Shown piece by piece: positions 868-64,000 of a stretch of DNA of 64,000 nt. The notes under the pieces are model-generated. The model searched no databases, was not told the DNA's origin, and saw nothing but the letters and a program-made list of their open reading frames with translations. The stretch lies in assembly GCA_947631395.1 (NCBI GenBank), contig CANRLF010000003.1, positions 62,001-126,000 of the forward strand, read 5' to 3'. Both the position numbers and the translations under genes were made by a program. How positions within the stretch are numbered: the first letter of the stretch is position 1; each line of letters opens with the position of its first letter. This DNA is from an uncultured Oscillospiraceae bacterium (GTDB lineage: Bacteria > Bacillota > Clostridia > Oscillospirales > Oscillospiraceae).

Positions 868-2352
868 TCACAGGATAAGGTCATATTTTTCCACGTCCAT
901 GATAACACTGCCCATGGACTCAAAGCTGATGGCGTCGGCGCTCACGTCGGTGTATATCACAGTGGTGGCCGCCTGCTCGCCGTCGTTTACAAACAGCTCC
1001 ATGCTGTACTTGTCAAGGACGATGCGAAGCTTTATCTCCCCGCCATGCGGCCGGACAACAAAGTCCCGGACGTTGACGATGTCGTGGGGGAAGCCGCAAC
1101 GGGTCCTGTCCACACGGACGGTACTGCACTCCGGCTTATACCGGACGGTTGTCATGTTCTCGCCATTGCCGGCCACGTTTACCTTGAACCAGCCGTACAT
1201 GCTGTTCTGCGAGGCCGAGCGGACGGTGACTGTCATGTCTATCACCCGGCCCCGGACGTTCTGGAGGGTGGTCATGCCGTTTAAAAGCACGTTTCTATAT
1301 AGTATCTGGTAGCTCCTGCATTTTTCAAGCTCCCGGACCGGGTTCTGGTACAGCCACCCGTCCCGGACGGAAAGCTCCCGGGGCACGGTCATCTGACCAA
1401 ACCACTGGGCGTTGGCGGGCTGGCAGTTTGAGGTCTCCCAGTTTTGCATCCAGCCGATCATCACCCTCCTCCCGTCGGTCGTCAGAAGGGTCTGCGGAGC
1501 GTAGAAGTCAAGGCCGTAGTCAATGGCCTGGACGCTCTCCCGATCCAGGTGGCACCGCTCCCGGTCATATTTGCCGATGAGGCACAAGGTGCCGTGGCCC
1601 GCGTGAAACTCAAGGCCGATGGCGGTCATCTCCTCGGGACTTGTGAGCAGAACATGCTTGCCGTCCAGCTCAAAGAAGTCGGGGCACTCCCACATCCGCC
1701 CAAACTGGTTGTGGCAGGCCGCCAGCACTCCCTTATATTCCCAGCTCAGGCAATCGGAGCTCTCGAAGAGCAGTACCGACCCGCTCCCGTCGGCGGGACG
1801 GTTGCCCACCACCATATAATAGGTGTCCCCCTCCCGCCAGAGCTTGGGGTCACGAAAATCGAAGGGGCTCCCGCCCTCCGGCAGGTCCTCGGCGGATATT
1901 ACCGGGTTAAGGCCGTATTTTTCGTAATTGAGGCCGTCCCCCACCGCCACGCACTGGGTCTGGCGGTCATGGAGCTTGCCGTTCTCCTCACGCACTTGGC
2001 GGACGCCTGTGTACAGCAGCAGCTGCCGACCGTCAGGCAGCTCCACGGCGCTTCCGGAGAAGCAACCGTTTTTATCGTACTCCTGATCCGGCGCCAGGGC
2101 CACGGGAAGGCGCTCCCAGTGGAGGAAGTCCGACGTTTTCACGTGGCCCCAGTGCATGGGTCCCCACTTTGTCTCGTAGGGGTGATACTGGTAAAAAAGG
2201 TGGTACTCACCGTTATAGATCGAAAAGCCGTTGGGGTCGTTCATCCAGCCGATCGTAGGCGTGAGGTGGAAGGCCGGGCGCTTGTCGTCGCCTATGAACG
2301 GGCCATACTGGGCCTCAAATTCTCTGGCTTTTTTCAGTACCTCACTGGCCAT
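868..2352 (-). CDS. GH32 beta-fructosidase (sucrose/fructo-oligosaccharide hydrolase), cytoplasmic
   Basis: 494 residues without signal peptide, so it should hydrolyse imported sucrose or fructo-oligosaccharides inside the cell. The three GH32 acidic motifs are intact: WMNDPNG with nucleophile Asp39, RDP at 167-169 and WEC with acid/base Glu222. A five-bladed propeller is followed by the C-terminal beta-sandwich from about residue 340. The ATG at 2352 is chosen since AGGAGG lies 9 nt upstream; ATGs at 2358 and 2373 are too close to or upstream of this site. The start overlaps the stop of the YesL-like gene by 11 bp, indicating translational coupling. Import through an ABC transporter (no PTS present) argues for unphosphorylated substrate rather than sucrose 6-phosphate. 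Confidence 0.93.
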   Translation of the reverse strand: MASEVLKKAREFEAQYGPFIGDDKRPAFHLTPTIGWMNDPNGFSIYNGEYHLFYQYHPYETKWGPMHWGHVKTSDFLHWERLPVALAPDQEYDKNGCFSGSAVELPDGRQLLLYTGVRQVREENGKLHDRQTQCVAVGDGLNYEKYGLNPVISAEDLPEGGSPFDFRDPKLWREGDTYYMVVGNRPADGSGSVLLFESSDCLSWEYKGVLAACHNQFGRMWECPDFFELDGKHVLLTSPEEMTAIGLEFHAGHGTLCLIGKYDRERCHLDRESVQAIDYGLDFYAPQTLLTTDGRRVMIGWMQNWETSNCQPANAQWFGQMTVPRELSVRDGWLYQNPVRELEKCRSYQILYRNVLLNGMTTLQNVRGRVIDMTVTVRSASQNSMYGWFKVNVAGNGENMTTVRYKPECSTVRVDRTRCGFPHDIVNVRDFVVRPHGGEIKLRIVLDKYSMELFVNDGEQAATTVIYTDVSADAISFESMGSVIMDVEKYDLIL

Positions 2353-3019
2353 CGTCATCGTCCTCCTCTTCATCCTCCGCCGGTGGAGCGGCGGTCTCTT
2401 TTGCCAGGTCCTCGGGTCGCATGTGGAGCCTGAACACCTTTTCCATTGTGAAGCTGACGATCACAAATACAGCCGCGGGCCCGATAAGGGCCATAAAGGG
2501 CACGAGGAGCGTCAGCGCGATGCCCGCAAGCAGCGGGGCCATGACGCCAAGCATCCTTATGGGATGGAGCACCATGAGCATACCGGCGAATTTGAGCACC
2601 TCCAGGACCCTGCCGTTGAACCTGGCGGCGTAAGCGGCCACGTATACCGCCCATGTCACGCCGAGGCACCAGAGGACAAGGCCCACGGTGTAGAGCCTTC
2701 CGAAGGGCTTTCCCGCGATGCTCATTCCCCGCAGGGCAAACACGTCCACGGTCAGTATCGCCAGCACCAGGAACACGAACGCCCACAAGATAGTGGATCG
2801 CTTCAAATTCTCCTTGAACGGCCCCCAGAAGAGCCTCCACAGTCCGCCCTCCTTTTTCCGGACGGAGTGGTAGGCCGCGGAGTAAAGCGCCGTGGTCGAA
2901 GCGCCGATGGTGACCACGGGGAGGGAGAAAACCAGCCACAGAACGCTGAGGCAAATGCAATCTCCGATGGCGGTCAGAGCTCCCATAACGGGGCTGTCAT
3001 ATCCGAATATACCTTTCAT
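2342..3019 (-). CDS. YesL-like membrane protein (DUF624)
   Basis: 225-residue polytopic protein with hydrophobic segments around residues 12-40, 75-95, 105-128, 145-165 and 170-195, the spacing seen in the DUF624/YesL family that accompanies CUT1 polysaccharide-uptake loci in Firmicutes. The opening MKGIFGYDSPVMG followed by a first membrane segment is typical of the family. The C-terminus ends in an acidic run (EDEEEDDDD). Molecular role is unknown; proposed roles as accessory transporter or sensor remain inference. It sits between the secreted GH32-like lipoprotein and the cytoplasmic GH32 in the same operon. Confidence 0.85.
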   Translation of the reverse strand: MKGIFGYDSPVMGALTAIGDCICLSVLWLVFSLPVVTIGASTTALYSAAYHSVRKKEGGLWRLFWGPFKENLKRSTILWAFVFLVLAILTVDVFALRGMSIAGKPFGRLYTVGLVLWCLGVTWAVYVAAYAARFNGRVLEVLKFAGMLMVLHPIRMLGVMAPLLAGIALTLLVPFMALIGPAAVFVIVSFTMEKVFRLHMRPEDLAKETAAPPAEDEEEDDDDGQ

Positions 3020-3049
3020 ACTTCCTCCCTCCCCGCCTCAGCGGCGGCT

Positions 3050-4789
3050 TCACGGTCTGGTGTACTCCCTTAATGAGGTGAACAGCACCGAGTTGTTTTC
3101 GGCGAATATCTCTATGTTCTTGCCGCTGGCGCCGTAGAGCCGAACGGTAAGCGAGTTCACGCCGTCAATGTAGAAGATACCCACGCTGCCCTCCTGGATG
3201 TAGGTGAAAGAATATGTCTCACCTGCCGTCAGGGGCGCCGCGGTCTCGGTTATGACCGTTCCGCCCTCGTTGAAGGCCAGGCGCATGACGCCGTCGGAGG
3301 GAGCTATGGAGATAAATTTATTTTTGTCGTCACGGCCATTGTAGTCGAAGCTGAGGCCGAAGGAGCCCTCCCCCGTGAAGGTAAATTCACCGGTGAGCAT
3401 GAAACTCTCGTAGCAGGTGAAGGCATCCGCGTAGTTATACGCCGAGCCCGACGCCACATACGCGTGGGTGCCGCCCTCGCACGGAAGCTCGCGCCGGACG
3501 CTGAAGCTTTCCGCCACCGCGTCCACCGGGTCGAGGTAGAGAGTACCGTCGGAGTTCTGGATGATCTCCTGGGCGGCCATATTACCGGCCCATCCGGCCA
3601 CGTCCTGGGTGGAGGACATGGACTCGGACCTTCTGGCCCAGCCCACCATGTAGTATTTCTCGCCGTCCTCCACGTGCTTTGCCGCGTAGAAGAGCTTGCC
3701 GTCCAGCCTCACAGGGTCCCCGTAGGGGCCGTAGGGCGTGTCAGACACGGCGTACCAGAGGGTGTCGTCCTGGGCTGAATAGGTTATGTAGTATTTGTCG
3801 CCGATCTTGAATGTGTCGGAGCACTCCAAATTCCAGAAGTCCCCGTTTTTGGCCTCGTCGTTTGTGAAGATGACGCCGTCATAGTGCTTGTTTTTAAGGT
3901 CCGGGCTCACGGTGTACTTGAGGATCCGGGCCACGCCGTCCATAGCGGCGGTGACGGTCAGTATGATGTTTCCGGTTTCCGGATCCACGTAGCCCTGGGG
4001 GTCCCGGAAATCGTTCTTCTGACCCAGCTCCGCGGGGGGCGTGATCTCCCAGCCCTCCAGTTTCTCAAAGGATGTAGGCGTATCGCCCACGGCCACCATG
4101 ACCTTCTCGGCGTACTCCAGCACCGCGCCGTTTCCGTGGCCGGTGTAGAAGAAGTAATATTTGTCCCCTGACTTCACAACGGAGCCCGTGCCTATCCAAC
4201 TGTCCTGACCGCCGTCGCGGTTGGCCTCCAGCACCGGCGCGTCGACCTCGGTGTAGGTCACGAAGTCCGTGGTGGTGGCAAGGTAAACGGAGTGGTTGTA
4301 GGAGTCCCCGGCCTCCTTGAGGTAGTAGATGTAATAGGTGCCGTCCTCAAAGTATGGCATGGTGTCCCCCACGAAGGGCTGGCTGGTGCCATCTTTCTCC
4401 GGTCGGAAGAAGGCACTGTACTCGTAGGCGTCCTCCTGGCTTCCTGGACTGCGAAGGGATGAGAAGTCCTTATCGTTGCCGGGGTTTGAGGGTGTGTCGC
4501 CAGTATTTTTGTCCCAGCCGGCGTAAAGGGTCATATCGCCCTGGACCTTATCGGATGCAAAGTCGAAGCTCTCGGTGAGCCCGGCGTCCTGGAACCAGCC
4601 GATGAAGCTGTATCCGTCCTTGGCGGGATCGGCGGGGGCCTCGGCCTTTTTGCCGCCCTTCACTGTCATGGATTCGATGGCGGTGCCTGCGGAGCCCTCG
4701 TCGAAGCTCACGGTATATTCCGCCGAGGAGCATGCGCCGAGAGATATTATAAGGGCGAGGCACAGCGCCGCGCAAGTTATTTTTTTCAT
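3050..4789 (-). CDS. Surface lipoprotein with InlB-type repeat and GH32-like catalytic propeller (fructanase)
   Basis: 579 residues. A lipoprotein signal ends at LGAC (Cys20). Residues about 25-92 form one Listeria-Bacteroides/InlB-type beta-repeat (GYSFIGWF then LYAGW), followed by a linker rich in G, N, D and S. From about 125 on there is a GH32-like five-bladed propeller: candidate nucleophile Asp142 in GDTMP, an FRDP motif at 261-264 and an EC motif at 322-323. A C-terminal beta-sandwich follows. The start at 4789 has GGAGG upstream; earlier in-frame Met codons precede the signal peptide and lack support. It probably degrades fructan at the cell surface to supply the ABC transporter. The nucleophile motif differs from canonical WMNDPNG, so exact specificity is open. 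Confidence 0.82.
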   Translation of the reverse strand: MKKITCAALCLALIISLGACSSAEYTVSFDEGSAGTAIESMTVKGGKKAEAPADPAKDGYSFIGWFQDAGLTESFDFASDKVQGDMTLYAGWDKNTGDTPSNPGNDKDFSSLRSPGSQEDAYEYSAFFRPEKDGTSQPFVGDTMPYFEDGTYYIYYLKEAGDSYNHSVYLATTTDFVTYTEVDAPVLEANRDGGQDSWIGTGSVVKSGDKYYFFYTGHGNGAVLEYAEKVMVAVGDTPTSFEKLEGWEITPPAELGQKNDFRDPQGYVDPETGNIILTVTAAMDGVARILKYTVSPDLKNKHYDGVIFTNDEAKNGDFWNLECSDTFKIGDKYYITYSAQDDTLWYAVSDTPYGPYGDPVRLDGKLFYAAKHVEDGEKYYMVGWARRSESMSSTQDVAGWAGNMAAQEIIQNSDGTLYLDPVDAVAESFSVRRELPCEGGTHAYVASGSAYNYADAFTCYESFMLTGEFTFTGEGSFGLSFDYNGRDDKNKFISIAPSDGVMRLAFNEGGTVITETAAPLTAGETYSFTYIQEGSVGIFYIDGVNSLTVRLYGASGKNIEIFAENNSVLFTSLREYTRP

Positions 4790-6672: not shown

Positions 6673-8358
6673 TCACTTCGTGGCGACATACCTGTCGTAG
6701 GCGGCCTGGTAGACCTCCAGGAGTTCGGCCAGGTGGGTCCTGCCGGTCAGGTCCTTCTGGAAGGTGGACCAGTCGCCGTCGGACACGCCGCCGTTCATAA
6801 GCCACTTTATAAGGTTGGTGCGGATGTAGTCATTGAGGGCGGACTCATACTGGGTGATGACGTTGAGCTCCTTTGCGGTGAACTGGAGGTTGGGGGTGGG
6901 GGTGACGTTGGCGGGGATGTAGGGTGTCACATAGGCCTGGAGGCGCTCAAGGCGGAGCTTGGCGCGGGGCTCCATGTTGACAACGTGCTCCCAGGCGTAG
7001 TCGTTGAGGTAGATGATGCCGAGAGGCGCGTTCTGGAGCCTGAGCTCGTCGGAGGTGATGCCCTCGGGCAGAGCCTTCTGCACCAGCATCCCGTTGGAGT
7101 CAAGCTCCTCCTCATAGACGATGCCGATGGGGCCGTAGTTGATCTGAGCGGAGATCATGGGATCGTAATAACGGTCAAAGTAGGTAAGAAGGATCTCAAC
7201 ATTGGGGGTGTCGGCAAAGATGACAACCTCGCCGGTGCTGATCTCGGGGTTATTGGACACGCAGGCGGTCTGGGAAGTCCCGTCAGGTCCAACCAGCGGT
7301 GCGCAGACGATGTAGTTTTCGGGGTTGGATACGACCGTCTCGCTCTCCCACCAGTAGAAGAAGCCGTAGGTCTCGGCGCCCTTGCCGTTGGCGAGGAAGT
7401 TATCCTGGCTTATCTCAAAGGACACCTTGTCGATGAGGTTGTTGGTCACCCAACCGGCGATGAAGTTGGTGGCCTCCTTGAAACGGTCGTCCTGTACGGT
7501 GTAGGTGATCTTGCCGTCCACGACCACCCGGTGCTCTAAGTTGTCATTGAGCCCGAACATGCCGTAGAGGTCGCACTGGTTGCCCTGCCAGTTGTTGTAG
7601 ACGAAGCTCATGGGGCGCTCGTCATCGGTTTTGCCGTTGCCGTTCATGTCGTTGTCGCGGAAATAGGTCATAAGCTCCTCGGCCTGCTTGGCGGTGAGGC
7701 TCAGGCCGTCCTTGAGGTCCGCCTCAGTAAGGCCCGTGACCTTGCCGGCCTTGATTGCCGCCGCGGCCCAGTTTTTATTGAGGAAGAGGATGTTGGGGTT
7801 CTGGAGAAGGCCCATCTCCTCGACTCTCGGCAGAGAGTAGATCTTGCCGTCCTCGCTGGTGAGCTGTGCCTTTATGTCGGGGCGCTCATTCAGGATCTTC
7901 TGGAAGTTGGGCATATACTCAAGGTAATCGCTGATGGGCAGGAGCACATGGCGCTGGGCGTACTTGTTGATCTCGCCGGCGGTCATGCCCGCGTGATAGA
8001 TGGCGTCGGGGCGCTCGGCGGCGTTGCCGAAGATAAGGTTCTTCTGCTGGCCGTAAACGGACTCGGACACGTTCTCCCAGCTGACATACACGTTGGTGCT
8101 CTCGTACAGATCCTGCATGATCTTCATGTCGTTGTAGTCAAGCGCCGAGGCGTTCTTGGAAGAATAGATGTTGAAAGAGATCTCCTGTGCGCCCTTATCG
8201 TTGAGGATGGGGGCGGAGGTATCGGTCCACTGATAGCCGTAATCGGATACGAGCTTATCCACGTCGGCGCTGGTGCGGTCGTCGGTCTTGCCGCCTCCGC
8301 AGGAGGCCAGCGTCAGGGCCATGATGGCGCAGAGAATAAGGGAAACTGTCTTTTTCAT
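6673..8358 (-). CDS. ABC transporter solute-binding lipoprotein (LplA-like, CUT1 family)
   Basis: 561 residues with a lipoprotein signal ending LASC (Cys20). The large size and the segments NIYSSKNAS, YHAGMTAGEINKYA, LLPISDYLEYMPNF and GKIYSLPRVEEMG are typical of the LplA-like extracellular binding proteins of Firmicutes that serve polysaccharide-derived oligosaccharides. It is directly upstream of the accessory lipoproteins and 26 nt downstream of the permease pair. Substrate is inferred from the linked GH32 enzymes and fructokinase to be fructo-oligosaccharides or sucrose. Confidence 0.92.
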   Translation of the reverse strand: MKKTVSLILCAIMALTLASCGGGKTDDRTSADVDKLVSDYGYQWTDTSAPILNDKGAQEISFNIYSSKNASALDYNDMKIMQDLYESTNVYVSWENVSESVYGQQKNLIFGNAAERPDAIYHAGMTAGEINKYAQRHVLLPISDYLEYMPNFQKILNERPDIKAQLTSEDGKIYSLPRVEEMGLLQNPNILFLNKNWAAAAIKAGKVTGLTEADLKDGLSLTAKQAEELMTYFRDNDMNGNGKTDDERPMSFVYNNWQGNQCDLYGMFGLNDNLEHRVVVDGKITYTVQDDRFKEATNFIAGWVTNNLIDKVSFEISQDNFLANGKGAETYGFFYWWESETVVSNPENYIVCAPLVGPDGTSQTACVSNNPEISTGEVVIFADTPNVEILLTYFDRYYDPMISAQINYGPIGIVYEEELDSNGMLVQKALPEGITSDELRLQNAPLGIIYLNDYAWEHVVNMEPRAKLRLERLQAYVTPYIPANVTPTPNLQFTAKELNVITQYESALNDYIRTNLIKWLMNGGVSDGDWSTFQKDLTGRTHLAELLEVYQAAYDRYVATK

Positions 8359-8384
8359 TTATAGACCTCCATTAAAATTAGCTG

Positions 8385-9296
8385 TCAGCCCTTCAAAGAG
8401 CCGATCATAACGCCCTGGCTGAAGTACTTCTGAACGAAGGGGTAGAGAAGCAGCACGGGGACGCTGGACACTATAACGGATACGTACTTTATCTGGTTGG
8501 CCATACGGTACTGCTCCAAAATGGTCTCGCCGGAGCCGCCCATGGTGCTCTCGGAGGCTATCAGGATCTCCTTCAGCACCAGCTGGAGGGGATACTTGGC
8601 CTCGTCCTGGAGGAAGATCATGGCGTTAAAGTAGCTGTTCCACTGGCCGATGGCGTAGTAAAGGGCCATGACGGCCAGGATGGCCTTTGAGAGGGGCAGG
8701 ACAAGGGAAGTGAATATCCTGTACTCCCCCGCTCCGTCTATCTTGGCGGCCTCCACCAGTCCGTCGGGGATGCTGGACTCGAAGAAGGTCTTTGTCATAA
8801 ACAGGTTCCACACCGAAAGGATGGAGGGCAGTATCACGGACCACATGGAGCCCACGAGGCCCAAGGAGCTCATCACGTTATAAAACGGTATGAGTCCGCC
8901 GCCGAAGAACATGGGGATGATGAAGTAGATCATCCAGAGCTTCTTGCCGGGGACGGTCTTGCGGCTCAGCGCCCAGCCCGCGGGAACTGTGACCGCCAGG
9001 GAAAGGACGACCGTAAGAGCGGTGTAGATTATGGTGTTCAGATACCCGGTCCAGATGCTCTTCTCCTGGAGTATCCGCTTAAATCCGTCCATGGTGATCT
9101 GCACGGGATAGAGGACCACCTTTCCGCCCAGTACCGCGTCGGGGTCGGAGATGGCCGCGATCACAATGAAGTACAGGGGGTAAATGACTATAAGGGCCAT
9201 GAGGCCGAGGAACAGGGCGTTGATGGTGTAGAACACCTTGTCGCCAAAGCCCAGCCTTATTGGCGGGCGTCTTTTTGCTGAATTTTTCACTGACAT
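8385..9296 (-). CDS. ABC sugar permease, LplC/YtcP-like
   Basis: 303 residues with six predicted membrane helices and the CUT1 permease cytoplasmic loop EAAKIDGAGEYRIFTSLVLPLSKA at about 200-225, which docks to the ATPase. The C-terminus ends QGVMIGSLKG, the usual end of LplC-like proteins. Start at 9296 is preceded by AAAGGAGG at a spacing of 8; an in-frame Met at 9317 lies upstream of this site and inside the preceding gene. Partner of the permease encoded immediately upstream. Confidence 0.93.
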   Translation of the reverse strand: MSVKNSAKRRPPIRLGFGDKVFYTINALFLGLMALIVIYPLYFIVIAAISDPDAVLGGKVVLYPVQITMDGFKRILQEKSIWTGYLNTIIYTALTVVLSLAVTVPAGWALSRKTVPGKKLWMIYFIIPMFFGGGLIPFYNVMSSLGLVGSMWSVILPSILSVWNLFMTKTFFESSIPDGLVEAAKIDGAGEYRIFTSLVLPLSKAILAVMALYYAIGQWNSYFNAMIFLQDEAKYPLQLVLKEILIASESTMGGSGETILEQYRMANQIKYVSVIVSSVPVLLLYPFVQKYFSQGVMIGSLKG

Positions 9297-9310
9297 CACT
9301 TTCTCCTCCT

Positions 9311-10291
9311 TTACCACAGGGAATTTTCAGAGAACTTCTTTGAGGTGGTATTGGCGATGATGAGAAGGACCACGTTGATGATGGAGTTGAAAAGTCCGAT
9401 GGCCGTGGCGTAGCCCTGATTAGGTACGCCCGTAAGGCCCTGCTTGTAGACGTAGGTGGCGATGAGCTCGCTGACTCCCAGGTTGCCGTCGGTCTGCATA
9501 AGGAGCGCCTTCTCATAGCCCACGCCCATGAGGCCGCCGATGGACATGATGAGCATGACGCTGATCATGGGCATTATGGCGGGCAGGTCCACGTGCAGGA
9601 CCCGCTGGAACCTGGAGGCGCCGTCAAGTATCGCCGCCTCGTGCTGGCCGGGATCCACGTTTGAAAGCGCCGCGATATAGATGATGGCGCTCCAGCCGAA
9701 GTCCTGCCAGTTTGAGGAGAGTATGTACAACGGCCTGAAGGCTCCGCTTTCAAGGAAGTAGGACTTCCTCTCGCCGCCAAGTCCCGCCACGATGTTGTTC
9801 ACCAGACCGTAGCGGCCGAAGAACAGCGTCAGCATACCGACAAGGACCACCAGGGATATAAAGTGGGGCCCGTTGAAGATGGTCTGCAATACCTTCGACA
9901 TCCTGCGGCCCTTCATTGCGTTCAGCATGAGGGCGATGATGATGGGAAGCGGGAAGCCGATGACGAAGCCGATGATGCACAGAAGGAACGTGTTTTTCAT
10001 CAGCGGCCAGAACTGCACGTCGGTGAAGAACCTGGTGAAGTTCTCAAATCCTATCCACCTTGTGTATTTGCCCAGGATCGGGTCGCCGGGCATAAAGTCC
10101 TGGAAGGCGATGAGGACGCCGTAGATAGGCAGGTAGTTGAAAAGGAACACTACCAGCACGGCGGGAAGAAGCATCACAAGGAACGGGTGATTTTCCCTGA
10201 GCCTCCTCCATCTCCTCCGGGCCTTGAGCCGGCGGGGGCTCATGTCCGCGGTGAGCGCCGCCCCGTCAGGACCGGCTTTTACTTTTCGCAT
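9311..10291 (-). CDS. ABC sugar permease, LplB-like
   Basis: 326 residues: a basic cytoplasmic N-terminus (about 35 residues), six membrane helices and the permease loop HEAAILDGASRFQRVLHVDLP near residue 235. FLFNYLPIYGVLIAFQDF after the first helix is a signature of the LplB branch. A G-rich ribosome binding site (AAAGGGGAAAA) precedes the ATG. Forms the heterodimeric membrane channel with the downstream LplC-like permease; cotranscribed from the 11.6 kb promoter. Confidence 0.93.
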   Translation of the reverse strand: MRKVKAGPDGAALTADMSPRRLKARRRWRRLRENHPFLVMLLPAVLVVFLFNYLPIYGVLIAFQDFMPGDPILGKYTRWIGFENFTRFFTDVQFWPLMKNTFLLCIIGFVIGFPLPIIIALMLNAMKGRRMSKVLQTIFNGPHFISLVVLVGMLTLFFGRYGLVNNIVAGLGGERKSYFLESGAFRPLYILSSNWQDFGWSAIIYIAALSNVDPGQHEAAILDGASRFQRVLHVDLPAIMPMISVMLIMSIGGLMGVGYEKALLMQTDGNLGVSELIATYVYKQGLTGVPNQGYATAIGLFNSIINVVLLIIANTTSKKFSENSLW

Positions 10292-10339
10292 TTCTTTTTT
10301 CCCCTTTCATTGATTTATTGTTACCGGCGCCAAAGTGGT

Positions 10340-12950: not shown

Positions 12951-13014
12951 ATATGTATATACGCGCGCGGCAAGCATATGAACTCGCCGTTTATCACCGA
13001 TGGGAGGTACATAT

Positions 13015-13911
13015 ATGGAAAACATGTTCACAAATACACACATCCTGGCGTGGCTGACCTATTTCGCCGAAAACATGCAGGTGGACCTGGAGAAGGTCAA
13101 GCTTCTGGACATCACCAGAAAGAACAAGAACCTTATACCCACGGTGGAGTCCCACGGCGCCGTGCTCGTGTTTACCGAGGCAGGGCACCCCGACATCTTT
13201 TATAAGATGTGGGACGCGGGCCTTGGTGAGTGCGAGGTCTGGTACAACGAGGGCTCCGAGCCCGCGGGCCCAATACTCCACGCGCCAATAAAGGACATGA
13301 TAAATCGGGGCATCAACGCCTCCGCCGGGATGCTCATCTTAAATCCCAACGCCCGCTCCACCACCAAGATCGGTATGCGCAACTCCGATTTCTTCAAGGG
13401 CTCCGTCCACTATGTGGGAAGCGAGATACGGGCGGTCATCTTAAATAAGATGCACGTATCCAGCGCCGACACGGTCTGCGTCATCGGCGGCGCCTCCATC
13501 GCGGTGGAGACGGCCATCCTGGCCCCCGAGGGCACGGTCATCGCCGTGGAGTATAACCAGCACGACCGCCACACGGTGGAGGAAAACGCCCACCAGTTCG
13601 GCCTCAACAACATAACCGTCATCGACCGTGTAAGCGAGGACACCATGAAGGATCTTCCGGTGCCCGCGCTGACCTTCCTTGTGGCCTCCGCCAGTATGGA
13701 ACGTGAGATAGAGTGCTTACTAAAGCTCAACCCCCACATGGAGTTCGTCATCTACACCCTGGACTTCAGGTGCGCCGCCACTCTGCCGGACACCCTCGCC
13801 GGATACGGCGTCGGCGAGACCGAGGTATTGCAGATAGCCGTCAGCAAACTTACGGGCAAGAACACCTTTGACGCCGAACCGGCGCCCTGGATAATCTCCG
13901 GGCGGGCGTAA
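13015..13911 (+). CDS. Orphan CbiT/CobL-like (precorrin methylase family) protein
   Basis: 298 residues. The C-terminal part (about 125-298) has the layout of CbiT, the precorrin-6B methyltransferase/decarboxylase: SEIRAVILNKM, a Rossmann glycine region, ETAILAPEGTVIAVE, NNITVID, and the terminal QIAVSK with a final IISG as in CobL. The N-terminal 120 residues resemble no domain clearly and could be a degenerate CbiE half. The SAM-binding glycine loop reads CVIGGASIAVE and not the usual GxGxGSxxIE, so cofactor binding may be altered. GGGAGG precedes the ATG at 13015. No other cobalamin gene is near; it has its own promoter. Biological role unknown. Confidence 0.6.
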   Translation: MENMFTNTHILAWLTYFAENMQVDLEKVKLLDITRKNKNLIPTVESHGAVLVFTEAGHPDIFYKMWDAGLGECEVWYNEGSEPAGPILHAPIKDMINRGINASAGMLILNPNARSTTKIGMRNSDFFKGSVHYVGSEIRAVILNKMHVSSADTVCVIGGASIAVETAILAPEGTVIAVEYNQHDRHTVEENAHQFGLNNITVIDRVSEDTMKDLPVPALTFLVASASMEREIECLLKLNPHMEFVIYTLDFRCAATLPDTLAGYGVGETEVLQIAVSKLTGKNTFDAEPAPWIISGRA

Positions 13912-14003
13912 AACCGGATTTTCGGTGCGCTGATACCCGCTTTTTTGTCAAAGATGTATCTTGACATCCCACATTTATTCGTTTAAAATACTGATAATTT
14001 CAC

Positions 14004-14245
14004 TTGCTAAAGACCGTGATGGAGACAGTAGGCGTTCCCAGAGCCGCAGAGAGCCGGAGGTTGGTGCAAATCCGGTGCCGCAGGACACGCTGAATATCAC
14101 TCCGGAGTTTCAGCCCGAAACACGTTTGGAGTAGGCGCTGACGGTTCTCCCCGTTAACGGAGGCGTGTATGGATGTACACAGTAACGGGTGGTTGAGCGG
14201 TGTCAACTTATGACGTCCGTCCCTTTACGGGACGGACGTTTTTTA
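14004..14245 (+). ncRNA. T-box riboswitch leader, predicted isoleucine (ATC) specifier
   Basis: Fills most of the 353-bp gap before the oxidoreductase operon. Visible T-box parts: a Stem I block with AGAGAGCCGG, GGTTGGTGCAAATCCGG, then TGAATATCACTCCGGAG, in which the codon at the specifier position (14096-14098) is ATC, Ile; and a T-box/antiterminator segment GTAACGGGTGGTTGAGCGG (14182-14200) containing TGGT at 14190-14193, complementary to the ACCA end of tRNA-Ile. It ends in an 11-bp perfect terminator stem (14213-14223 with 14229-14239) followed by six T. Uncharged tRNA-Ile should allow read-through. The specifier was assigned by aligning by eye with known T-box Stem I layouts. Confidence 0.9.
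14213..14244 (+). terminator. T-box regulated intrinsic terminator
   Basis: Perfect 11-bp GC-rich stem with a 5-nt loop and a six-T tail, 20 nt before the first structural gene's start codon. Its formation competes with the antiterminator of the leader. Confidence 0.9.
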
Positions 14246-14264
14246 ATGAAAAGAGGTTTAAGCA

Positions 14265-14846
14265 ATGAGCAAGACCATGACTGAGATCCGCTGGCACGGG
14301 CGCGGCGGGCAGGGGGCCAAGACCGCGTGCCTTCTGCTGGCCGACGCGGCCTTCGCCTCCGGAAAGCACGTACAGGGCTTCCCGGAGTACGGCCCTGAGC
14401 GGATGGGCGCGCCAATTACCGCCTACAATCGGATAAGCGACCTTCCCTGCACCATCCACTCCAACATATATAACCCCAATTACGTGGTTGTGGTGGACGA
14501 GTCTCTTCTCCACTGCGTGGACGTGACAGCGGGGCTCGATCCGGAGGGGGCCATCGTAATAAATTCCCCCAGAGCGCCCGAGGAGCTCCGTCCCCTGCTC
14601 CGGGGCTACACCGGAAGCGTGTATACCATCGACGCCAGGACGATCTCAGAGCAGTGCCTGGGCCGGTACTTCCCCAACACGCCCATGCTGGCGGCCATAG
14701 TGAAGGTCAGCGGTGTGCTGGATCCGGACAGGTTCATCTCGGATATGGAGGCGTCCTTCCACCACAAGTTCGCCACAAAGCCCCAAGTCATAGAGGGCAA
14801 CATGAAATGCTTAACGATGGCAATGAAGGAGGTGCGGGGAGCGTGA
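14265..14846 (+). CDS. 2-oxoacid:ferredoxin oxidoreductase, gamma subunit
   Basis: 193 residues. Begins with the family's conserved WHGRGGQGAKTACLLLADAA segment and continues with VQGFPEYGPERMGAP, both typical of gamma subunits of pyruvate/2-ketoisovalerate ferredoxin oxidoreductases. It helps form the CoA-binding and structural core with the other subunits. The ATG has AGAGG upstream. First gene of a gamma-delta-alpha-beta operon, the order used by archaeal-type VOR/POR enzymes; translationally coupled to the delta gene by a GTGA overlap. Confidence 0.92.
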   Translation: MSKTMTEIRWHGRGGQGAKTACLLLADAAFASGKHVQGFPEYGPERMGAPITAYNRISDLPCTIHSNIYNPNYVVVVDESLLHCVDVTAGLDPEGAIVINSPRAPEELRPLLRGYTGSVYTIDARTISEQCLGRYFPNTPMLAAIVKVSGVLDPDRFISDMEASFHHKFATKPQVIEGNMKCLTMAMKEVRGA

Positions 14847-15154
14847 GCTACATAAAAGCCGAAAATATAAATGAGCAGTCCCCCTGGCAGGAGATGACCC
14901 CCGGCGGGGAGATATACGAGGGCGGCACCTCGCGGCTTACAAAGACCGGCGAGTGGCGTTCAAATCGCCCTGTGTGGGACCCGCAGAAGTGCCGTCAGTG
15001 TCTTCTTTGCGCCCCCTTCTGCCCTGACTCCTCCATCCCCGTGAAAGCGGGCAAACGTGTGGATTTCGACTACGACCACTGCAAAGGGTGCGGCATCTGC
15101 TGGAAGGTCTGCCCCTTTGAGGCCATAACCATGGAACAGGAGGTGCACCAATGA
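14843..15154 (+). CDS. 2-oxoacid:ferredoxin oxidoreductase, delta (2[4Fe-4S] ferredoxin) subunit
   Basis: 103 residues starting at GTG, which overlaps the gamma stop (GTGA) and is preceded by AAGGAGGTG. Two ferredoxin cysteine clusters are visible: CRQCLLCAPFCPD and CKGCGICWKVCP, each binding one [4Fe-4S] cluster. It transfers electrons from the TPP subunit to soluble ferredoxin. An in-frame start inside gamma exists but has no ribosome site. Stop overlaps the alpha start by 4 bp. Confidence 0.92.
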   Translation: MSYIKAENINEQSPWQEMTPGGEIYEGGTSRLTKTGEWRSNRPVWDPQKCRQCLLCAPFCPDSSIPVKAGKRVDFDYDHCKGCGICWKVCPFEAITMEQEVHQ

Positions 15155-16350
15155 GCATCCGTGAACGTCTTTCCGGCAATGAGGCCATCGCCACCGCCAT
15201 GCGGCAGATAGACCCCGATGTCTTTGCCGCCTTCCCCATAACCCCCTCCACCGAGATACCCCAGTATTTCGCCCAGTACGTGGCCGACGGCAAGGTCGGC
15301 ACCGAGTACGTCACCGTGGAGAGCGAACACTCCTCCATGTCCACCTGTATCGGCGCCGCCGCCGCGGGTGCGAGGGCCGTGACCGCCACCTCCTCAGCGG
15401 GCCTTGCGTTCATGTACGAGGTCCTCTACGTGGCGGCCTCCAGCCGTCTGCCCATAACCCTGGCCTGCGTTAACCGCACACTGACGGGCCCCATCAACAT
15501 AAATAACGACCACTCTGACTCCATGGGCGCCAGGGACGCCGGGTGGCTCCAGATCTACGCCGAGAACAACCAGGAGGCATACGATAACTACCTCCAGGCC
15601 ATGCGCATCTCCGAGCACCCCTCCGTCAGGCTCCCCATAATGATCTGCCAGGACGGCTTCATAACCTCCCACGCCGTGGAGAACATACTCTTAGAGTCCG
15701 ACGAGGACGTGAAGAAATTCGTGGGCGAGTACCGCCCCGAGCACGCCCTTCTTGGACGTGACCACCCCCTGGCCGTCGGCCCCTACGACTCCTGCCCCTA
15801 CTGCATGGAGCACAAGGTCCAGCAGGCCGAGGCCATGAAGAACGCGAAGAAGGTCATCCTTGACGTGGCCGCCGACTTCGAGCGGACCTTCGGCCGCAAG
15901 TACGGCTTCTTTGAGGAATACCGCATGGAGGACGCCGAGGTTGCCCTCGTCCTCATCGGCTCCACCGCCGGCACCGCCAAGGCATGTATCGAAAAGCTCC
16001 GGGCCCAGGGCGTTAAGGCCGGCCTTGTGAAGATCCGGGTGTTCCGTCCCTTCCCCATGGAGGAGCTGGCCCAGGCCCTCAAAAACGTGAAGGCCGTGGC
16101 CGTCATGGATAAATCCGAGGGCTACTCCGGTTGCGGCGGCCCCCTCTTCGCTGAAACACGTTCGGCATGCTACGATTTGGATAATCCCCCGAAGATGATC
16201 GACGTGGTCTACGGCCTTGCCGGCCGTGACTGCGCGGTGGAGGACATCGAGAAGGTCTACCGGCATCTTCTGAAGATCGTTGAGACCGGCGACGTGGGCC
16301 CCCGTTACATACACTTCGGCCAGCGCAGTAATCAGAAGGAGGTGCTTTGA
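15151..16350 (+). CDS. 2-oxoacid:ferredoxin oxidoreductase, alpha subunit
   Basis: 399 residues. N-terminal pyrimidine-binding domain of the TPP fold (AAFPITPSTEIPQYFAQY, VESEHSSMSTCIGAAAAGAR, TSSAGLAFMYEVLYVA) and a C-terminal transketolase-like domain (GSTAGTAKACIEKLRAQGVK, IRVFRPFP). The motif set is that of POR/VOR alpha subunits. Substrate specificity cannot be read by eye; the isoleucine T-box upstream points to branched-chain 2-oxoacids. ATGA coupling with delta. Confidence 0.93.
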   Translation: MSIRERLSGNEAIATAMRQIDPDVFAAFPITPSTEIPQYFAQYVADGKVGTEYVTVESEHSSMSTCIGAAAAGARAVTATSSAGLAFMYEVLYVAASSRLPITLACVNRTLTGPININNDHSDSMGARDAGWLQIYAENNQEAYDNYLQAMRISEHPSVRLPIMICQDGFITSHAVENILLESDEDVKKFVGEYRPEHALLGRDHPLAVGPYDSCPYCMEHKVQQAEAMKNAKKVILDVAADFERTFGRKYGFFEEYRMEDAEVALVLIGSTAGTAKACIEKLRAQGVKAGLVKIRVFRPFPMEELAQALKNVKAVAVMDKSEGYSGCGGPLFAETRSACYDLDNPPKMIDVVYGLAGRDCAVEDIEKVYRHLLKIVETGDVGPRYIHFGQRSNQKEVL

Positions 16351-16352
16351 GT

Positions 16353-17288
16353 ATGGCTTACAATCACAAGGTCGAGCTTTCAAAGCCCGAACGCTTCGCC
16401 CCGGGCCACCGGCTCTGCGCCGGCTGCGGCGCGGGAATCGTCTGCCGTGGCATAACCCGCGCCTTAGATGAGGGCGACCGGGCGGTCATATGCAACGCCA
16501 CCGGGTGTCTGGAGGTCTCATCCTTCCTCTACCCCTACACCGCCTGGGAGGACAGCTACATCCACTCCGCCTTTGAAAACGCCTCCGCCGTCTGCGGCGG
16601 CGTGGAGTCTGCCTACAAGGCCCTCAAAAAGAAGGGCAAGCTTGAGGGCGACTGCAAATTCATCACCATCGGCGGCGACGGCGGCACCTACGACATTGGC
16701 TTCCAGTCCCTGTCCGGCGCCATGGAGCGCGGCCACGACATGGTGTACTTCTGCTATGACAACGAGGCGTACATGAATACCGGCATCCAGCGTTCCTCCT
16801 CCACGCCCCGCTTCGCCAACGCCACCACCACCCCGGTGGGCACGGAGTCCCTGGGCAAAAAGCAGGAGAAAAAGGATCTCACCGTAATAATGGCCGCCCA
16901 CAATATCCCCTACGTGGCCCAGACCACCTTCATCGGTAACTTCAAGGACTTCCACGAGAAGGCCCACCGGGCCATCTACACTCCGGGCCCGGCCTTCGTA
17001 AACGTCATGGCCCCCTGCCCCCGGGGCTGGCAGTACCCCTCCGAGCTCTTGCCGCAGATATGCAAGATGGCCGTTGAGACCTGCGTCTGGCCCCTCTATG
17101 AGGTGGTTGAGGGCAAGTGGATGCTCAGCTACGAACCCAAAAAGAAGCTCCCCGTCGAGGAGTTCATGCGCCTCCAGGGCCGCTTCAAGCACTGCTTCAA
17201 GCCCGGCAACGAGTGGACCATTGAGGCCGCCCAGGACTACGTGGACCGCAAGTGGTCCGAGCTCCTCGAAAGGTGCTCCCGTAGCTGA
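16353..17288 (+). CDS. 2-oxoacid:ferredoxin oxidoreductase, beta (TPP-binding) subunit
   Basis: 311 residues. GHRLCAGCGAG provides N-terminal cluster cysteines, and the thiamine diphosphate site is GGDGGTYDIG followed by DNEAYMNTGIQRS, which supplies the metal-binding Asp and Asn. AAGGAGGTG lies 10 nt before ATG 16353; a TTG at 16347 would be only about 4 nt from it and is disfavoured. Last gene of the operon, followed by a strong bidirectional terminator. Together the four subunits interconvert a 2-oxoacid plus CoA and acyl-CoA plus CO2 with ferredoxin. Confidence 0.93.
   Translation: MAYNHKVELSKPERFAPGHRLCAGCGAGIVCRGITRALDEGDRAVICNATGCLEVSSFLYPYTAWEDSYIHSAFENASAVCGGVESAYKALKKKGKLEGDCKFITIGGDGGTYDIGFQSLSGAMERGHDMVYFCYDNEAYMNTGIQRSSSTPRFANATTTPVGTESLGKKQEKKDLTVIMAAHNIPYVAQTTFIGNFKDFHEKAHRAIYTPGPAFVNVMAPCPRGWQYPSELLPQICKMAVETCVWPLYEVVEGKWMLSYEPKKKLPVEEFMRLQGRFKHCFKPGNEWTIEAAQDYVDRKWSELLERCSRS

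Positions 17289-62458: not shown

Positions 62459-64000
<1,542 letters not shown>

Follow-up and report, generated by a model that had tools for sequence, protein, structure and literature searches.

In a 64,000-nucleotide stretch of DNA from an uncultured Oscillospiraceae bacterium (GenBank assembly GCA_947631395.1, contig CANRLF010000003.1, positions 62,001 to 126,000; hereafter the window), a T-box leader with an isoleucine specifier stands directly in front of porG, porD, porA and porB, the genes of a four-subunit 2-oxoacid:ferredoxin oxidoreductase. The same pairing recurs in several bacterial families, and it is probable that the enzyme is anabolic and supplies isoleucine under a switch that responds to isoleucine starvation, whichever of two acyl-CoA substrates, propionyl-CoA or 2-methylbutyryl-CoA, it takes. 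The features of the locus are listed in Table 1.

Table 1. Features of the T-box-por locus and its upstream neighbour, in window coordinates.
Feature	Position	Strand	Basis or remark
CbiT-like protein (N-terminal part and CbiT-fold domain, altered Gly-rich loop)	13000-13911	+	upstream of the T-box; conserved por neighbour
Sigma-70-like promoter, TTGACA-17-TAAAAT	13961-13989	+	consensus scan, 11/12 bases
T-box leader (Stem I, specifier, antiterminator)	14007-14227	+	RF00230, 89.4 bits, E 2.6e-20
Specifier ATC (Ile)	14096-14098	+	register of 8 other T-boxes of the genome; invariant in relatives
TGGT, predicted to pair with the tRNA acceptor end NCCA	14190-14193	+	sequence; GTGGT in 50/50 T-box-bearing relatives
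Intrinsic terminator stem-loop, 12 pairs	14212-14240	+	fold of 14205-14246, -23.1 kcal/mol
porG, gamma subunit, 193 aa	14265-14846	+	TIGR02175, 199.9 bits (cut-off 81.1); PF01558
porD, delta subunit, ferredoxin-like, two [4Fe-4S] motifs, 103 aa	14843-15154	+	TIGR02179, 101.5 bits (cut-off 60.05); Fer4 domains
porA, alpha subunit, 399 aa	15151-16350	+	PF01855, PF17147; PorA_Arch 480.3 bits (cut-off 550)
porB, beta subunit, thiamine-diphosphate-binding domain, TTG start as listed, 313 aa	16347-17288	+	PF02775; PorB 362.2 bits (cut-off 405)

The T-box leader

The T-box covariance model, RF00230 of Rfam, aligns with the leader over its whole length (model positions 1-219 of 219), with the E-value of Table 1 in a search of 401 bases and an E-value of 3.9e-20 when the genome was searched. 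A preliminary description of this DNA, made from the letters alone, had named a leader with Stem I, an antiterminator, a TGGT bulge and a terminator, and the covariance-model search that it proposed, run at a lowered threshold, bears this out. When the window was scanned with Rfam at the default gathering scores, no RNA family was returned, because the gathering score of RF00230 is 93 bits and the leader reaches 89.4; that score is a curation threshold, which the leader misses while matching the model itself. Nine T-boxes, the por leader included, are found in the genome at an E-value of 0.001 or below, two of them above the Rfam cut-off and seven below it, and the other six of these seven precede genes that were named by eye as encoding aminoacyl-tRNA synthetases or enzymes that make amino acids. 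The tRNA-binding TGGT is contained in GGGTGGT at 14187-14193, and the antiterminator core is atypical, reading GGGTGGTTGAGCGG in place of the usual AGGGTGGTACCGCG.

In the proposed mechanism the transcript would begin just ahead of position 14007. When tRNA-Ile is charged the terminator would form; uncharged tRNA-Ile would pair at two sites, its anticodon (GAU) with ATC and its NCCA end with TGGT, and the antiterminator stabilised in this way would allow porGDAB to be transcribed. The enzyme would then act as a synthase, joining an acyl-CoA and CO2 at the expense of reduced ferredoxin to give a 2-oxoacid that serves isoleucine.

Conservation of the pairing

The alpha subunit was used to search GTDB genomes for relatives, and the best 80 of at least 540 were used for all locus counts. 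T-boxes were detected in them with a nucleotide profile trained on the 11 por T-boxes of the genus together with the genome's eight other T-boxes, at a threshold above 30 bits; the lowest match kept scored 42 bits. Four matches below 10 bits were discarded, and three of these were additional hits in loci that had already been scored as T-box-bearing. A T-box lies directly upstream of por in 50 of the 80 loci, five of which (L081-L085) are near-copies of the training sequences, and five of the 30 loci without a call have too little upstream DNA. RF00230 supports the T-box in each of six relative loci sampled, with 43.8-83.9 bits. Since the window copy and all six score below 93 bits, annotation at the Rfam cut-off would overlook this leader.

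The pairing spans the Oscillospiraceae, Butyricicoccaceae, Syntrophomonadaceae and Peptococcaceae, with Agathobaculum desmolans, Butyricicoccus, Emergencia, Clostridium aminobutyricum, Syntrophomonas, Formimonas and Desulfoscipio records among the bearers, and its carriers include many gut and methane-digester bacteria. Given the E-value of the leader and this conservation across families, a chance match as the source of the pairing is excluded on sequence grounds. On a maximum-likelihood tree of the alpha subunit the T-box label changes nine times, compared with a mean of 21.1 when labels are shuffled, and bearers fall on both sides of the midpoint root, which together make an ancient link with later losses plausible. 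Within the genus por is accessory, being present in 11 of 34 genomes (E<=1e-60).

At locus L142, in a Desulfosudis metagenome-assembled genome (Thermodesulfobacteriota), an operon of por and a CbiT-like gene has what appears by eye to be a T-box remnant upstream of about 3085, with the start of Stem I and the terminator present and the middle missing. It was possibly left after a transfer from Firmicutes.

The specifier codon

The local sequence, GAA-T-ATC-A-CTCC, permits two cuts, TAT or ATC. In all eight other T-boxes of the genome the specifier triplet stops one base ahead of the 3' strand of the lower helix (helices paired by eye), and this rule gives the expected codon every time: GTC for valS, CTC for leuA, TGG for trpE, ACC for thrS, TAC for tyrS (with a small open reading frame between), TGC for cysE/cysS, TTC for pheS and TGG for a trpB-like gene (genes again named by eye). 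Applied to the por leader it gives ATC. This codon is kept in all 11 por loci of the genus and is invariant in the 50 T-box-bearing relatives, where the preceding base is A in 22, T in 16, G in 7 and C in 5, the position after the codon holds A (48 relatives) or C (2), and GTGGT always lies further 3'. With ATC invariant, the base before it free and the genome-wide register in agreement, the isoleucine reading, as first described, is firm. A specifier one base earlier, TAT, which would make the leader a tyrosine switch on an aryl-pyruvate enzyme, has a negligible chance: the window alone can be cut as GAA-TAT-CAC, and TAC directly follows GAA in the tyrS T-box of the genome, but TAT is ruled out by the relatives, whose variable base would be its first while ATC is fixed, and the ileS leader of C. 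aminobutyricum carries the same GAATATCACTCCGGAG. Isoleucine would, by extension, be the amino acid that matters to the enzyme.

The enzyme and its likely substrate

The four genes occupy 14265-17288 with successive 4-base overlaps, in the order gamma, delta, alpha, beta. TIGR02175, TIGR02179, PF01558, PF01855, PF17147 and PF02775 all match above their cut-offs and place the product, as the preliminary description had it, with the four-subunit POR/VOR enzymes. Alpha and beta miss the pyruvate synthase equivalog cut-offs (Table 1) and also those for VOR (alpha 333.8 of 646 bits, beta 288.1 of 405), and the POR profiles outscore those for VOR (alpha 480 against 334, beta 362 against 288). Among solved structures the nearest in sequence is that of a pyruvate enzyme, PDB 9bt4 (alpha E 5e-86, beta E 4e-81). 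Thr31, Arg109, Ile115 and Ile117 of its alpha subunit are kept, while Phe28 replaces a tyrosine and Asn118 a tryptophan; some of these residues lie at what we take to be substrate-pocket positions, carried over from the Desulfovibrio/Desulfocurvus enzyme. Phe28, Thr31, Arg109, Ile115 and Ile117 are identical in 75 of 75 relatives and Asn118 in 72. None of these active-site positions separates the T-box-bearing from the T-box-less enzymes; genome G041, which has a por 64% identical to that of the window and no T-box found before it, has Tyr28 where the family has phenylalanine.

The pattern of residues and profiles fits a small substrate other than pyruvate. As the profiles favour pyruvate synthases over VOR, propionyl-CoA, giving 2-oxobutyrate, would be at least as likely a substrate as 2-methylbutyryl-CoA, giving 3-methyl-2-oxopentanoate, and is slightly favoured. 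The route from 2-oxobutyrate would be completed by IlvBN, IlvC, IlvD and a transaminase.

The preliminary description had chosen 2-methylbutyryl-CoA, with transamination of 3-methyl-2-oxopentanoate to isoleucine and salvage of the branched acids of neighbours. This choice, one of the two substrates within the isoleucine-supplying reading, seems a possible but tentative one. PMC2812497 cites the route in rumen bacteria and has it as the proposed one in Methanobrevibacter ruminantium; a Syntrophomonas leucine T-box in front of another enzyme of this kind, described below, points to carboxylation of branched acyl-CoA; and Phe28 and Asn118 differ from the residues of 9bt4. Against it stand the profile scores, the invariant Ile115 and Ile117, which are as in 9bt4, and the 27 close downstream genes, none of which is recognisable as a branched-acid CoA ligase.

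Other routes to isoleucine and pyruvate

The genome has further genes for both products. On one contig (C28) leuA-ilvB-ilvN-ilvC-ilvD-leuC-leuD-leuB, an ATPase-like gene and ilvA lie behind a leucine T-box (named by eye, with profile hits backing IlvC and IlvA). A single-chain pyruvate:ferredoxin oxidoreductase, whose whole gene scores 1724.9 bits, has its 3' part at 62483-64000 (-) of the window and runs past its end; it could serve pyruvate. Because of these two sets of genes por is, judged by gene content, neither the sole isoleucine route nor the sole candidate pyruvate enzyme. No T-box was found before the ileS of this genome.

IlvA, CimA and IlvC were surveyed in 47 of the 50 T-box-bearing genomes, L082-L084 being omitted as near-copies. 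IlvA was found at E<=1e-60 in 27, CimA above its cut-off in 17, one or both in 43, and IlvC in 41; for the six without an IlvC match completeness is not given and no inference is drawn. A role of por as the replacement of IlvA or CimA is ruled out here by ilvA, and likewise for nearly all other genomes examined. Four genomes (G087, G092, G125 and G126) keep IlvC with neither IlvA nor CimA matched, which would suit a 2-oxobutyrate synthase; their completeness is not given either, and no conclusion is drawn. Both substrate routes are compatible with a host that retains IlvA or CimA, which the por route would supplement.

An ordinary pyruvate synthase, with the supply of pyruvate tied only incidentally to isoleucine, is improbable. 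While 9bt4 is a pyruvate enzyme, a sensor for isoleucine alone would be odd for a product that feeds many amino acids, and the single-chain enzyme is present not only here but, at E<=1e-200, in 33 of 46 searched genomes (none at that level in the other 13). Less probable still is a catabolic enzyme that oxidises branched 2-oxoacids behind a T-box inherited by accident. Related enzymes of amino acid fermenters do run oxidatively, and a third of the loci with upstream DNA lack a detected T-box, but a T-box that induces when isoleucine is short has the wrong logic for degradation, and its ATC is kept in every T-box-bearing relative.

Several observations weigh against an isoleucine-supplying enzyme and are set beside it here. 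Of the 75 por loci for which upstream DNA is available, 25 show no detected T-box, and no por match at E<=1e-60 was found in 23 of the 34 genomes of the genus, some of which are incomplete. With the leu/ilv genes and ilvA in the same genome a second isoleucine route is not evidently needed, and no acyl-CoA ligase, CoA transferase or transaminase was recognisable among the 27 close downstream genes, the only ones covered. Profile scores are moreover weak guides to the substrate, for the alpha subunit of the enzyme behind the leucine T-box also scores higher with PorA (365 against 340 bits).

Parallel T-boxes in other genomes

In five named genomes 69 T-box matches were found, of which 68 were inspected, the specifier being visible in most or some but not all of them. 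By eye, isoleucine specifiers precede ileS in C. aminobutyricum and Syntrophomonas sp. DTU019, ilvD-ilvB-ilvN in the latter, and a BrnQ-like transporter gene in A. desmolans. In Butyricicoccus pullicaecorum ET57 (L233) a T-box whose specifier, again by eye, is apparently ATC (isoleucine) precedes a CstA-like transporter gene.

Syntrophomonas sp. DTU019 has a leucine (CTC) T-box of 105.2 bits at L213 10441-10696 (-), which precedes a second complete gamma-delta-alpha-beta operon (7272-10319, -). The beta subunit of this enzyme scores 338.5 bits with VOR and 310.6 with POR, and its alpha subunit, 35% identical to that of the window, 340.3 with VOR and 365.1 with POR. C. aminobutyricum and Formimonas each have a phenylalanine (TTC) T-box before a gene that resembles phenylacetate-CoA ligase and scores 572 and 599 bits, respectively, against a cut-off of 646, which suggests salvage of phenylalanine from phenylacetate. 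These loci lie at L214 about 2091-3718 (+) in C. aminobutyricum and L237 about 2600-4304 (-) in Formimonas warabiya, and at both a gene for an ACT-like protein follows the ligase-like gene. Among the genes seen, the leucine case occurs in one of the five genomes and the phenylalanine case in two; together they suggest that salvage by carboxylation may be turned on by T-boxes for several amino acids.

The preliminary description had the por enzyme run in the reductive direction. The logic of an isoleucine T-box and the leucine T-box before the other Syntrophomonas enzyme both support an anabolic, CO2-fixing direction, which on the sequence is probable.

The CbiT-like neighbour

The gene upstream of the T-box encodes a protein with no Pfam match at E 0.001 and a score of 39.9 bits with TIGR02469 (CbiT), below the cut-off of 78.3. 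The CbiT fold was found for its C-terminal domain; the N-terminal part of the model was barely probed by the fold search. The consensus of motif I, ISGESIAVE, is shorter than the usual Gly-rich S-adenosylmethionine (SAM) loop, and the acidic residue Glu184 is invariant.

The family adjoins por in 39 of the 80 loci, in three arrangements (13 upstream and 22 downstream on the same strand, four downstream and inverted). Within the genus a strong match (E<1e-100) is found in eight of 11 por-bearing genomes and in one of 23 without por (Fisher p 7e-5, relatedness ignored); weaker matches (E 1e-20 to 1e-35), long frames that are probably true CobL, were left uncounted. The gene is present in 41 of the 50 T-box-por genomes, adjacent in 28 and elsewhere in 13, and in 11 of 27 examined por genomes without a detected T-box (three of the 30 stand outside this count). 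Where it was not seen beside por, no T-box of its own was found in 12 loci, two of which (L161 and L164) begin right at a contig end, with nothing ahead of them, and could in fact be neighbours of por; by eye no recurrent neighbours of the distant genes were seen.

With its occurrence beside por in three arrangements and in most T-box-por genomes in mind, a further isoleucine route may be entertained as speculation, though it is very unlikely. In anaerobes rich in butyryl-CoA, the por enzyme would carboxylate acetyl-CoA or butyryl-CoA, both straight acyl-CoAs, and its CbiT-like neighbour would C-methylate the product, pyruvate to 2-oxobutyrate or 2-oxopentanoate to 3-methyl-2-oxopentanoate. 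The altered SAM loop, the nine of 50 genomes without the partner and the lack of a T-box on the gene when it stands apart all speak against it. As it stands, the neighbour is an uncharacterised family linked to the por enzyme by gene order.

Comparison with known systems

Which of the anaerobic 2-oxoacid oxidoreductases fix CO2 as synthases is usually a matter of guesswork; a conserved T-box specific for one amino acid indicates what the enzyme is for and which amino acid is concerned, and it makes old physiology, the formation of isoleucine from propionate or 2-methylbutyrate, testable at the level of genes in gut, rumen and syntrophic bacteria. T-box control of such carboxylation was not found in searches of the open-licence literature, including the main text of PMC2494555, PMC3766115 and PMC7778990. 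PMC7476758 cites several anaerobes that make isoleucine from propionate through a ferredoxin-dependent carboxylation; it also reports that wild-type E. coli, by means of another enzyme, labels 30% of its isoleucine from propionate, a share that rises to almost 60% when formate is added.

The 2-oxobutyrate synthase (2-oxobutyrate:ferredoxin oxidoreductase) of anaerobes catalyses the reaction proposed for por; it is known as an activity, to which no result here ties a gene. Carboxylation of 2-methylbutyrate in rumen anaerobes and methanogens, in the available text of PMC2812497, has in common with the por proposal that a precursor of isoleucine is made by carboxylation. With the leaders of ileS and ilv genes (RF00230) the por leader shares Stem I, the specifier loop, the TGGN bulge and the terminator and antiterminator, and its specifier is the one that C. 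aminobutyricum and Syntrophomonas sp. DTU019 have in their T-boxes before ileS; it differs in controlling a ferredoxin-dependent 2-oxoacid oxidoreductase, in its antiterminator core and in a score under the Rfam cut-off. The four-subunit pyruvate:ferredoxin oxidoreductase 9bt4 has the same subunit set, the same domains and many of the same active-site motifs, whereas the enzyme described here lies under the NCBIfam POR equivalog cut-offs, carries Phe28 and Asn118 in its alpha subunit and stands behind an isoleucine T-box.

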